Assembly (NCBI GenBank): GCA_029778235.1
Contig: JAKOQS010000066.1
Coordinates: 18,286-82,285 of the forward strand
Length of the DNA stretch: 64,000 nucleotides
Source: Chloroflexota bacterium
GTDB taxonomy: Bacteria > Chloroflexota > Limnocylindria > Limnocylindrales > CSP1-4
Reading direction: 5' to 3'
Position 1 is the stretch's first letter; every line of letters begins with the position of its first letter. Made by a program: the position numbers and the translations under genes. Shown here piece after piece: positions 51,856-56,054 of this stretch. The notes below the pieces were generated by a model that saw nothing but the letters and a program-made list of their open reading frames with translations, did not search any database and was not told the origin of the DNA.

Positions 51856-53667
51856 CTACTCCTCCCCCATCGCGAGGACCGCGAGGAAGGCCTCCTGCGG
51901 GATCTCGACCGAGCCGACCCGCTTCATCCGCTGCTTGCCTTCCTTCTGCTTCTCGAGGAGCTTGCGCTTGCGCGTGATGTCGCCGCCGTAGCACTTCGCG
52001 AGGACGTTCTTGCGCATCGCGCGGACCGTCTCGCGCGCCACGACCTGGCTCCCGATCGCCGCCTGGATCGGCACCTCGAACATCTGGCGCGGGATCAGCT
52101 CCTTGAGCTTCGCGGCCAGCCTGCGGCCGATCGCCTGCGCCTCCTCGCGGTGGACGATCATCGACAGCGCGTCCACCGGCTCCCCGTTCACGAGCACGTC
52201 GAGCTTCACGAGGCGCGCCGGCCGGTAGCCGATCTCCTCGTAGTCCATCGAGGCGTACCCCTGCGTCCGGCTCTTCAGCTGGTCGAAGTAGTCCACGATC
52301 AGCTCGGCCAGGGGGATCTCGAACTTCATGAGCACCCGTGTGGGATCCAGGTACTCCATCGACAGGAACGTCCCGCGCCGGATCCGCGTGAGGTCCATGA
52401 CGGTCCCGATGTACGCCGCGGGCGTCACGACCGAGAGCGCGACCCAGGGCTCCTCGATCTCCTCGATCTCCCCGGCCGTCGGGAAGAGCGACGGGTTGTC
52501 CACGACGAGGACGTCGTCGCGGTGCATGAGCTTCACGCGGTACTCGACCGAGGGGGCCGACGCGATGAGGTCGAGCGCGAACTCGCGCTCGAGGCGCTCC
52601 TGCACGATCTCCATGTGGAGCAGCCCGAGGAAGCCGCACCGGAAGCCGAACCCGAGCGCGACGGAGCTCTCGGGCTCGAAGCTGAAGCTCGCGTCGTTGA
52701 GGTGGAGCTTCTCCAGCGCATCGCGCAGAAGCGGGTAGTCCTCGCCGCTGATCGGGTAGATGCCGGCGAACACGAGGCTCTTCGCCGCCTGGTAGCCGGG
52801 GAGCGGGGCGGAAGCGGGATGGGCGGCGCCGGTGACCGTGTCGCCGACCTGCGCGTCGCGGACGCTCTTGAGGCCGGACGCGATGTAGCCGACCTCGCCG
52901 GCGACGAGCTCCTTCACCGGCACGAGCTGCGGCCGGAAGACGCCCATCTCGAGGGGCGTGAACTCGGCGCCCGACGCCATGAGCCGAAGGGCGTCGTGCG
53001 AGCGGAGCCGGCCCTCCTCCAGGCGCACGTACGTGACGACGCCCTTGTACGGGTCGTAGTAGCTGTCGAACACGAGCGCCCGGAGCGGGGCCCGCGGATC
53101 TCCCTTCGGCGGCGGGATCCTCGCGACCACGGCCTCGAGGATCTCCTCGATCCCGATGCCCTCCTTCGCCGACGCGAGGACGACCTCCTCGCGGGGGATC
53201 GCGAGGACGTTCTCCAGCTCCTCGATCACGACGTCCGGCTGCGCGGAGGGCAGGTCGATCTTGTTGACGACCGGGATGATCGTCAGGTCCAGCTTCATCG
53301 CGAGGAAGACGTTGGCGAGCGTCTGCGCCTCGATCCCCTGCGCCGCGTCCACGACGAGGATCGCGTCCTCGCACGCCTGAAGGGATCGGCTGACCTCGTA
53401 GGTGAAGTCGACGTGACCGGGCGTGTCGATGAGGTTCAGGCCGTACGTCAGCCCATCCGAGGCCGTGTACTCCAGGCGGACGGCTCGCGCCTTGATCGTG
53501 ATCCCCTTCTCGCGCTCGAGGTCCATCGAATCGAGGACCTGGCTCGTCATCTGGCGCGGATCGATCGTGTGCGTGACCTCGAGGAGCCGGTCCGCGAGGG
53601 TGGACTTGCCGTGATCGATGTGCGCGATGATCGAGAAGTTGCGCAGGCGCTCCTGGGGGGTCGTCAC
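51856..53667 (-). CDS. lepA: Elongation factor 4 (LepA)
   Basis: 603-residue translational GTPase. G1 [10 protein letters not shown]2/G3 [10 protein letters not shown] and DTPGHVDF, G4 NKIDLP, then the EF4-specific C-terminal domain ([25 protein letters not shown]), which separates it from EF-G. EF4 rescues stalled ribosomes under ionic or cold stress. GTG 53667 is used. It has no SD and lies 119 bp from the divergent glycosidase-like gene. Confidence 0.97.
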
Positions 53668-53771
53668 GATGCCGGAGTGTAGCCCGTCGGCGCCGGCGGG
53701 CACCGGGTCCGAGCCGCGCGGCCGCCGGGTCCGACGCTCTGCCGTCCGCGGCCCGCGGCCGTCTCGAGCGA

Positions 53772-53786: not shown

Positions 53787-54989
53787 ATGCGACTCTCGGC
53801 CCTCCTCGACCCGGCGATCCTGCCCGCGTACGTCTCGAGCGGCGCGCGCATCGCTCGCCGCGCGTTGCGCGGCCACGTGCGCCACGCCGGCTCCACGGAG
53901 GAGATCGTCGGGGCGGTCCTGGAGCGGTGCTGGGACGGCGACCGGTACGCCGCGTCGGGCGGCCAGTTCCGCCAGTTCTGGGCGCGCGACTTCGGGTTCT
54001 CCGCGCCGGCGCTGATGCGACTCGGCCACGGCGACCGGGTGGACGCGTCGCTCGACTGGGCCCTGTCCGCCTGGGGTCGCGCCGGCCGGATCACCACGAC
54101 GATCTTCCCGGGCCGGCGCCCGGCGGACGTCTGGGACTACGGGGTGGACTCGCTCCCCCTGGTCCTCCGGGCGCTGCGGGCGGCGCCGTCCGGCGAGCGG
54201 CTGGTGTCCGTGCACGCTGCCCTGCTGGCGACGGAGGTGCGTCGGTTCGGGTCGGTCGTCGTGGACCCCGCCTCCGGGCTGGTCGGGACGGGCCGCCGCC
54301 TCTCCACGCACCGCGACACGGTCGCGACCGCCTGCAACGCGTACGCGAACGCGATGGTGGCGTCCCTGGAGCGCGACCTCCGCGAGACCGGCTGGTTCCC
54401 GGCGCCCTTCGCACGGGGGTCCGCGGACCGGCTCGTAGCGGCGTTCTGGCGCGGCGACCACTTCGCCGAGGGCCCGCGCGGCGGCGTCGACGCCGACCTG
54501 GTGACGGGCGACGCGAACGTGGTGCCGTTCTGGCTCGGGGTGGTCCCCGACGATCTGGGCGCGGCGGCCATGCTCGCCGCGATCGAGGCGGCCGGGCTCG
54601 CCGACCCGCTGCCTCTGCGGTACAGCGCCGCTCCGTCGCGGGACGCGGACCGGGTCCAGCGTGTCTTCGTGCCCGACTACCAGGGGACCGCGATCTGGAC
54701 GTCGCTCGGGGCGATGGCGATCGAGATCTCGCTGCGCGTGGACCCGGACCGCGGCGCCCGATGGCTGCGCGGGCACCTCGACGTCGTCGAGCGGGACGGG
54801 ACGGTGTGGGAGGTGCTCGATCGGAGCCTCATGCCGTACCGCGGACGCGTCGGGCTGTGGCGGGCCGACGAGGCCATGCTCTGGGGAGCGCTCCTGCTGG
54901 ACCTCGCGCGGCGCGACCCTGGCCGCGGGCGGGCCGGCCCGCCCGACCCGACGGATGATGGGCCCGCACAGGGACGCCCCATGGCCTGA
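53787..54989 (+). CDS. Six-hairpin glycosidase-like protein
   Basis: 400-residue cytoplasmic protein without a signal peptide. [21 protein letters not shown], followed by helical hairpins with [36 protein letters not shown] and [23 protein letters not shown], fits the (alpha/alpha)6 fold of amylo-alpha-1,6-glucosidases and neutral invertases (GH100-like). Candidate acids are the Asp residues in WARDF and YGVDSLP, but I cannot assign the substrate. It stands alone between lepA and rpsT. Confidence 0.75.
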
Positions 54990-55056: not shown

Positions 55057-55171
55057 CTGCGTTCGCGCCACGCGGCGTCCTCTCCCGCGCAGGCGACCGG
55101 TATCCGCACTCCACGCGCGTCCGCACCTGCGCGGTCGCCCACCGACAGACATCGCACGAGGAACGCACACC

Positions 55172-55894
55172 GTGGCCCATTCGCCCCGAGGCTGGACCGG
55201 CGCCCGGACGCCGTCCGCGCAGAAGCGGGTCCGCACGGCCGAGCGCCGGCGGGACATCAACCAGCCGCGCAAGAGCGCCGCCAAGACGCTCGTCACCAAG
55301 GCCCTGCGGGTCGCCATCGGGCAGGCCGAGGGCGATCCGAACGAGCAGCTCGCCGAGGCCATCAGCGCGCTCGACCGCGCGGCCAAGGCCGGCGCCATCC
55401 ACCCGAACGCGGCCGCGCGTCGAAAGTCGCGGCTCACCCGCAAGGTGAACGCCGCGCTCGGCGGCGTCCACGTCCAGACCGGCAAGGTGCAGAAGGCGAC
55501 CGGCAAGGCCGCCGCCGCCAAGGCCGCCAAGGCCCGGGTGGCCGCGTCCAAGGCCGCCAAGGCCAAGGCGCCGCAGACGGCCGCCGGCAAGGCCCGCGCC
55601 GCCCTCACCAAGGCCGGCCGCACCGAGACGGCGAAGGCCGCGCCGTCCGCGACCGCGGCCGCGGCCCCGACCACGACCGCCGCCAGGACGACCAAGGCCG
55701 CCGCGACGAAGACCACCGCGTCCAAGTCGACGGCAGCCAAGACGACGGCCGCGAAGGCACCCGCGAAGGCGGCCGCCACGAAGACCACCGCGTCCAAGAC
55801 GGCTGCCGCGAAGACGGCCGCCGCCAAGGCGCCCGCCGCGCGCACGGCCAAGGCGCCCGCCAAGCCGAAGAAGCCGGCCGAGCCGGCCTCCTGA
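55172..55894 (+). CDS. rpsT: 30S ribosomal protein S20 with long Ala/Lys-rich C-terminal tail
   Basis: 240-residue protein. Residues 10-100 are S20 (SAQKRVRTAERRRDINQPRKSAAKTLVTKALR...AAKAGAIHPNAAARRKSRLTRKVNAAL). The remaining ~140 residues are almost only Ala, Lys, Thr and Pro (KAAKAKAPQTAAGK, TKTTASKSTAAKTTAAK) and resemble histone H1 or HU tail repeats. S20 is usually about 88 residues, so the tail more than doubles it. The reading frame stays open with GTG 55172 and GAGG upstream, so it is not a frameshift. A GNRA-loop terminator follows at 55957. Confidence 0.95.
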   Translation: MAHSPRGWTGARTPSAQKRVRTAERRRDINQPRKSAAKTLVTKALRVAIGQAEGDPNEQLAEAISALDRAAKAGAIHPNAAARRKSRLTRKVNAALGGVHVQTGKVQKATGKAAAAKAAKARVAASKAAKAKAPQTAAGKARAALTKAGRTETAKAAPSATAAAAPTTTAARTTKAAATKTTASKSTAAKTTAAKAPAKAAATKTTASKTAAAKTAAAKAPAARTAKAPAKPKKPAEPAS

Positions 55895-55956
55895 CGATCC
55901 GGCGCGGCGCATCGCGCCGCAGCCACTCGGCGGGAGCGCCCGCCGCAGCCACGACA

Positions 55957-55986
55957 CGAGGCCCGGGTCGCGAGACCCGGGCCTCG
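55957..55986. terminator. Bidirectional terminator after rpsT
   Basis: Perfect 13-bp stem CGAGGCCCGGGTC/GACCCGGGCCTCG with a GCGA (GNRA) tetraloop, between convergent rpsT and the FAD oxidoreductase gene. A second GC hairpin at about 55902-55919 (GGCGCGGCGCATCGCGCCGC) lies closer to rpsT. Confidence 0.8.
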
Positions 55987-56054
55987 TCGCGTCGTGTCCG
56001 TGCCGCCGCGCCCACGGCCGTCGCCCGCGCCCGGCGGGCCGGCCTCGGCGCGGG

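Follow-up and report, generated by a model that had tools for sequence, protein, structure and literature searches.

Ribosomal protein bS20 with a conserved C-terminal module and a variable polycationic tail in a lineage of Chloroflexota

The window, a stretch of 64,000 nucleotides from one contig of a Chloroflexota metagenome-assembled genome (MAG), contains the gene for ribosomal protein S20 (rpsT) on its forward strand. The features of the locus, in window coordinates, are as follows.

51856..53703, minus strand: lepA (EF4), TIGR01393, E 3e-285
55158..55162, plus strand: GAGGA, Shine-Dalgarno-like, 9 nt upstream of the GTG, read by eye
55172-55894, plus strand: rpsT frame, 240 codons, GTG start, TGA stop, open throughout
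55172..55174, plus strand: GTG start codon of rpsT
55172..55201, plus strand: N-terminal extension MAHSPRGWTG, 10 residues before the Pfam S20 match
55202..55462, plus strand: S20 core, residues 11-97, from PF01649, TIGR00029, the AlphaFold fold match and an omega of 0.144 (residues 1-97)
55463..55624, plus strand: linker and conserved tail module, residues 98-151 (..TGKAAAAKAAKARVAASKAAKAKAPQTAAGKARAALTKAGR), from omega, alignment, profile and model
55625..55891, plus strand: distal Ala/Thr/Lys/Pro tail, residues 152-240, of variable length and drifting
55892..55894, plus strand: TGA stop codon of rpsT
55956..55987, no strand assigned: 14-bp perfect inverted repeat with a 4-nt loop, terminator-like, no T run, read by eye

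The start of rpsT is supported by the GAGGA and by the alignment, in which relatives begin at the same residue. The groups within the class are referred to here as families f1 to f5, f1 being that of the window. Start codons are never ATG in these relatives: f1 uses TTG in 61 cases and GTG in 11, and f5 uses GTG in all 19. The gene lies close to lepA, which is on the opposite strand, and this proximity is also found in several relatives. Between the two genes runs a frame of 400 amino acids (53787-54986, plus strand) that matched nothing in Pfam at E 0.001 or in NCBIfam at E 1. The inverted repeat at 55956-55987 sits between rpsT and a convergent gene; a scan for consensus terminators does not list it because the T run is missing.

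Residues 11-93 match the entire Pfam S20 model (PF01649, positions 1-83 of 83, E 8.9e-20), and TIGR00029 agrees. The AlphaFold model contains the three-helix fold of S20 and best matches T. thermophilus S20 chains (1fjg_T, E 1.5e-4, 41% identity). Neither Pfam nor NCBIfam has a family other than S20 that matches the 240-residue protein at E up to 1, and the HU domain PF00216 was found neither in the protein nor in its genome. By sequence models and predicted fold, the product of 55172-55894 is thus a bona fide bS20, and it gives the only S20 match in the MAG (3.7 Mb, 366 contigs). The position near lepA and the non-ATG start add to the likeness in core sequence and fold, as the E. coli S20 gene also lacks ATG and begins with UUG (PMC10931766). 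The length differs: 240 residues here compared with 87 in E. coli and 106 in T. thermophilus, and the N-terminal extension, the basic C-terminal module and the polycation all lie outside every S20 model. To our knowledge, the size of bS20 is nearly invariant in the bacteria that have been studied.

The original prediction described an S20 followed by a tail of about 140 residues, longer than S20 itself, in an unbroken frame that is no sequencing error. Both points hold. The tail measures 143 of the 240 residues (98-240; 30 Lys/Arg, 2 Asp/Glu), the frame is open over all 240 codons, and the tail recurs in separately assembled relatives, which rules out misassembly or a frameshift as its origin. 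One relative, on contig CAIYQJ010000467.1, has the same tail and is 91% identical to the protein over residues 1-150. Aligning rpsT from related genomes had been suggested as a check, and all readable S20s of f1 proved to be tailed: in the 71 that end in a stop codon, 98-202 residues follow the core, with a median of 147. Damage is apparent only at the loci L060 (frameshift), L061 and L298 (N gap), L295 and L029. A chance reading frame does not account for the tail, since the G+C content at codon position 3 within it is 0.97-1.0, it recurs in separate assemblies, and its first part is under strong purifying selection. We conclude that the tail is a genuine part of the encoded S20 protein.

The tail consists of two parts, a conserved proximal module and a variable distal Ala/Lys/Thr/Pro part. 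This departs from the earlier description of a tail that is low-complexity throughout, as residues 98-151 form a specific module with 13 Lys/Arg and no Asp/Glu. When 29 diverse proteins from f1 and f5 were aligned, and again with 38, A128, A131, the motif TAAGKA (136-141), A144 and R150 were invariant; this applies to the aligned sets, outside of which one f1 protein has TAVGKA and another a frameshifted TAAEKA. Among four members of the window's genus, simple Nei-Gojobori counting gives an omega of 0.031 for the module, against 0.144 for the S20 core and 0.31 for the distal part, at dS values of 0.42, 0.39 and 0.75, respectively. The proximal tail is therefore more constrained at the protein level than the S20 core.

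A profile of the module strongly recovers the S20s of f1 and f5 (E 1e-9 to 4e-19) from 301 genomes of the phylum, and beyond these it finds nothing below 6e-4 and no other convincing home. It has no relative in the PDB at E up to 1, and none of 59 pattern matches in viral contigs could be confirmed. The possibility that the module is a copy of the first helices of S20 was rejected, as hhalign gives a P of 0.07-0.15, like that of shuffled columns. With an alignment of 38 sequences, AlphaFold predicts S20 followed by helices at 112-131 and 137-155, with a pLDDT of about 80 that falls to about 62; a fold search with this model returned S20 chains, over the core. In the model from the single sequence, the last S20 helix runs to residue 129 and the remainder is unfolded. 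Since the two models differ, the predicted helical hairpin of the module is tentative.

Of the 177 genomes searched in the class, 162 yielded an S20, and tail lengths were read from 111 S20 loci. In f5, 18 S20s have 24-87 residues after the core (median 80; the value of 24 belongs to a damaged frame), and five S20s from f2, whose genomes measure about 1.1 Mb, have 29-51. The S20 of f3 and f4 is ordinary, and the 14 from f4 have no tail. The families also differ in what the tail contains: f1 has the module and the polycation, f5 has the module followed by an acidic end, without the polycation, and f2 has a polycation without a recognisable module. Named relatives in a public collection include Chloroflexi bacterium CSP1-4 (f1), Candidatus Aquidulcis (f2) and a QHBO01 contig (f5), which, going by their GTDB names, we take to belong to the class Limnocylindria. 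Four f2-like S20s (L312, L313, L314, L319) have tails of 69-76 residues, and the sequence SGAKRAAATKA, present in three of these, may be what is left of a decayed module. Two records labelled Proteobacteria and Steroidobacteraceae (L298, L302) carry an S20 of the Limnocylindria type and are probably mislabelled or contaminated MAGs. One genome listed under f1 (G099) has an f5-like 16S rRNA and two S20s, and is probably a mixed MAG.

The opposite end of the protein follows the same division. An N-terminal extension of about 10 residues is common to the S20s of f1, f2 and f5 and absent in f4. It takes the form MAxxxRxWxGARTP in f1 and f5 and MGKTxRxYKGARTP in f2, and R6, W8 and G10, together with R12 and P14, are invariant in the f1 and f5 alignment. 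As the module is accompanied by this conserved, clade-specific extension, the contacts of S20 appear to be altered at both of its ends.

Basic tails on S20 are not restricted to this clade. In other Chloroflexota, S20 tails reach 51-102 residues after an RKSRL motif in f11, up to 89 in f10 and up to 60 in f22, and they also occur in f51, f76, f29 and f18. The TAAGKA module is absent from the S20 tails of all seven families, and Ala/Lys/Arg-rich examples from f11, f10, f22, f51, f76 and f29 are found at L144, L217, L212, L262, L155, L250, L248 and L235. These basic tails are shorter and have separate origins. In a contig labelled Dormibacterota and similar soil bins (L321, L325, L339, L342), the S20 tails share approximately AAGGAKGR near the core, and another tail (L337) has TAAGKT; they may share an origin with the module or have converged on it.

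We propose, with a probability of about 0.5, that the bS20 of this lineage carries a lineage-specific ribosome-docking module plus a disordered polycation. Here, the last helix of S20 would continue into the linker and the conserved, basic two-helix module (about residues 98-151). The module would most likely dock on a fixed partner in the 30S subunit, and the probable one is the 16S rRNA around S20, close to the base of the body; the distal, disordered Ala/Lys/Thr/Pro part would act as a polycationic tether that binds nearby nucleic acid without sequence specificity. bS20 is a primary binder of 16S rRNA. In the ribosome, it bridges the 5' domain of 16S rRNA and helix 44 (PMC10931766). Docking on the 30S subunit is favoured because the module keeps its sequence more strictly than the core and does so only on S20. 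Likewise, low omega at equal dS, together with the invariant residues, argues for a fixed contact rather than for a DNA-binding tail that depends on composition only. We infer ribosome docking, rRNA as the partner and polyanion binding by the distal part from these patterns. More broadly, rRNA or DNA binding, one of the possibilities named in the original prediction, would remain the leading class of function for the tail.

Speaking against docking are the low pLDDT of the second module helix, the lack of a matching rRNA expansion and the absence of HU from the clade, described below. In a comparison of complete or partial 16S genes from tailed and tailless families (L393-L408), the lengths of h6, h8-h11 and h44 hardly differ: between f1, f2 and f5 on one side and f3 and f4 on the other, h6 spans 38-42 nt, and h8, h9, h11 and h44 are equal within 1 nt. 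The loop of h6 is CTTG in f1, f2 and f5 and GCAA in f3 and f4, a single difference between the clades that carries no weight as proof. The 16S region of one f3 genome (L401, G126) is 1769 nt long compared with about 1495 in relatives, suggesting an insertion in that gene.

A second reading, which we consider unlikely, assigns the tail an additional job like that of H1 or HupB, in which it would bind and compact DNA or tie ribosomes to the nucleoid, and which would be useful once HU had been lost. Mycobacterial HupB and Streptomyces HupS are HU proteins with an Ala/Lys/Pro tail; they resemble the present protein in the composition of the distal tail and differ in that its core is S20, not HU, in a genome without an HU domain. 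HU was surveyed because it bears such tails in some bacteria. Among 83 genomes of the class with a completeness of at least 85%, none of the 67 from the tailed clade has PF00216 (f1 53, f2 6, f5 8) and all 16 sister genomes have it (f3 1, f4 15). Actinobacterial IHF (NF041260), a candidate replacement for HU, was absent over the cut-off in 30 genomes, including all those of f1, f2 and f5 that were tested. DNA binding is also on record for some bacterial ribosomal proteins (PMC10931766).

The absence of HU from the entire tailed clade leaves room for a DNA role and is suggestive of one, yet it amounts to one event. In a LepA tree, f1, f2 and f5 form one clade (support 100/100) and f3 and f4 another (100/99), so the pattern in the class is one independent contrast. 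Furthermore, 213 of the 400 genomes surveyed in Chloroflexota (at least 80% completeness), entire families among them, gave no PF00216 match, and many Chloroflexota without HU carry an ordinary S20. In other genomes of the phylum, those with an S20 tail of at least 35 residues comprise 12 without HU, one weak and one HU-positive case, and those without a tail comprise 43, 6 and 31, respectively; these figures are rough, as the S20 sample was partly picked as HU-less or high-scoring. The association of tail and HU absence has a Fisher p of 0.026 by genome and is not significant by family (p 0.24). Substitution of HU by the tailed S20 is possible and weakly supported. A conserved module would also be unusual for an H1-like tail, and f5 has an acidic end in place of the polycation. 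The strongest version, in which S20 of f1, f2 and f5 would have taken over part of chromosome packaging or would tie ribosomes to the nucleoid through module and tail, we regard as very improbable.

The term 'histone-H1-like', used in the original prediction, fits the tail in part. Its composition is Ala/Lys-rich and acid-poor, as in H1-like proteins, and for the distal part this description stands. It does not extend to the proximal 54 residues, which are a specific module with no H1, HU or other relative found, and f5 keeps the module with an acidic end and without the polycation.

Decidedly doubtful is a role in storage or hibernation, where the distal polycation would bind polyphosphate, mRNA or neighbouring ribosomes. 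Its composition would suit such a role, and there is a precedent in AlgP of Pseudomonas, which is Ala/Lys/Pro-rich in its repeats. This H1-like protein has a proposed role at polyphosphate granules (PMC9239181). The likeness lies in the Ala/Lys/Pro-rich polycation; AlgP is not ribosomal. Polyanion binding of this kind would leave the conserved module unexplained, and f5, with its module, lacks the polycation altogether.

The distal part could instead have grown by near-neutral slippage in a G+C-rich genome and be tolerated because the C-terminus of S20 faces the solvent, an origin to which we give similarly little credence. In line with it, 72-bp tandem repeats lie at 55673-55836 along with shorter ones, indels are frequent, omega is relaxed as given above and tail lengths are very different. 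Slippage leaves the strictly kept module unexplained, and the tail has stayed polycationic throughout f1 and f2, with the last 20 or so residues of the tail conserved in the window's genus. Nor does the genome show a general habit of Ala/Lys tails: in 1.02 Mb (28%) of the MAG, in pieces that lack the main ribosomal-protein operons, no second basic Ala/Lys-rich tail was found, and the remaining hits were a secreted Pro/Thr-repeat protein and spurious-looking frames. Across the whole MAG, a search for the tail pattern that allowed up to one mismatch located 23 sites, and outside rpsT none of them falls in an Ala/Lys-rich frame. The sole ribosomal protein caught by the motif in the 1.02 Mb, uS2, has no basic tail, and phmmer with the tail against its own genome returned the self-match only, a weak result given that low complexity is down-weighted. 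Finally, the idea that the tail is an anti-degradation extension found no support.

Basic tails on ribosomal proteins are already known, and what sets the S20 module of f1 and f5 apart is that it matches no Pfam, NCBIfam or PDB entry in our searches. Mosquito RpS6 and RpL23a have histone-H1-like, lysine-rich extensions (Hernandez and Fallon, cited in PMC11764897). As in S20, a ribosomal protein bears a long, Lys/Ala-rich low-complexity tail with several independent origins; these are other proteins, from eukaryotes, and the parts of that source available to us describe no strictly conserved module for them. Our literature search, which left most subscription journals outside its scope, gave no precedent for an H1-like tail on bS20.

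Taken together, S20 has more than doubled in length in this lineage and the added module is kept more strictly than S20 itself, which means that the small subunit probably contains an undescribed component peculiar to the lineage. Basic tails that arose repeatedly and independently on the S20 of Chloroflexota parallel the H1-like tails on insect ribosomal proteins. As the tail and the missing HU coincide, the question whether ribosomal proteins can replace nucleoid proteins becomes directly testable. If the chromosome-packaging reading were true, ribosomal protein S20 would be a main nucleoid-associated protein of these bacteria.
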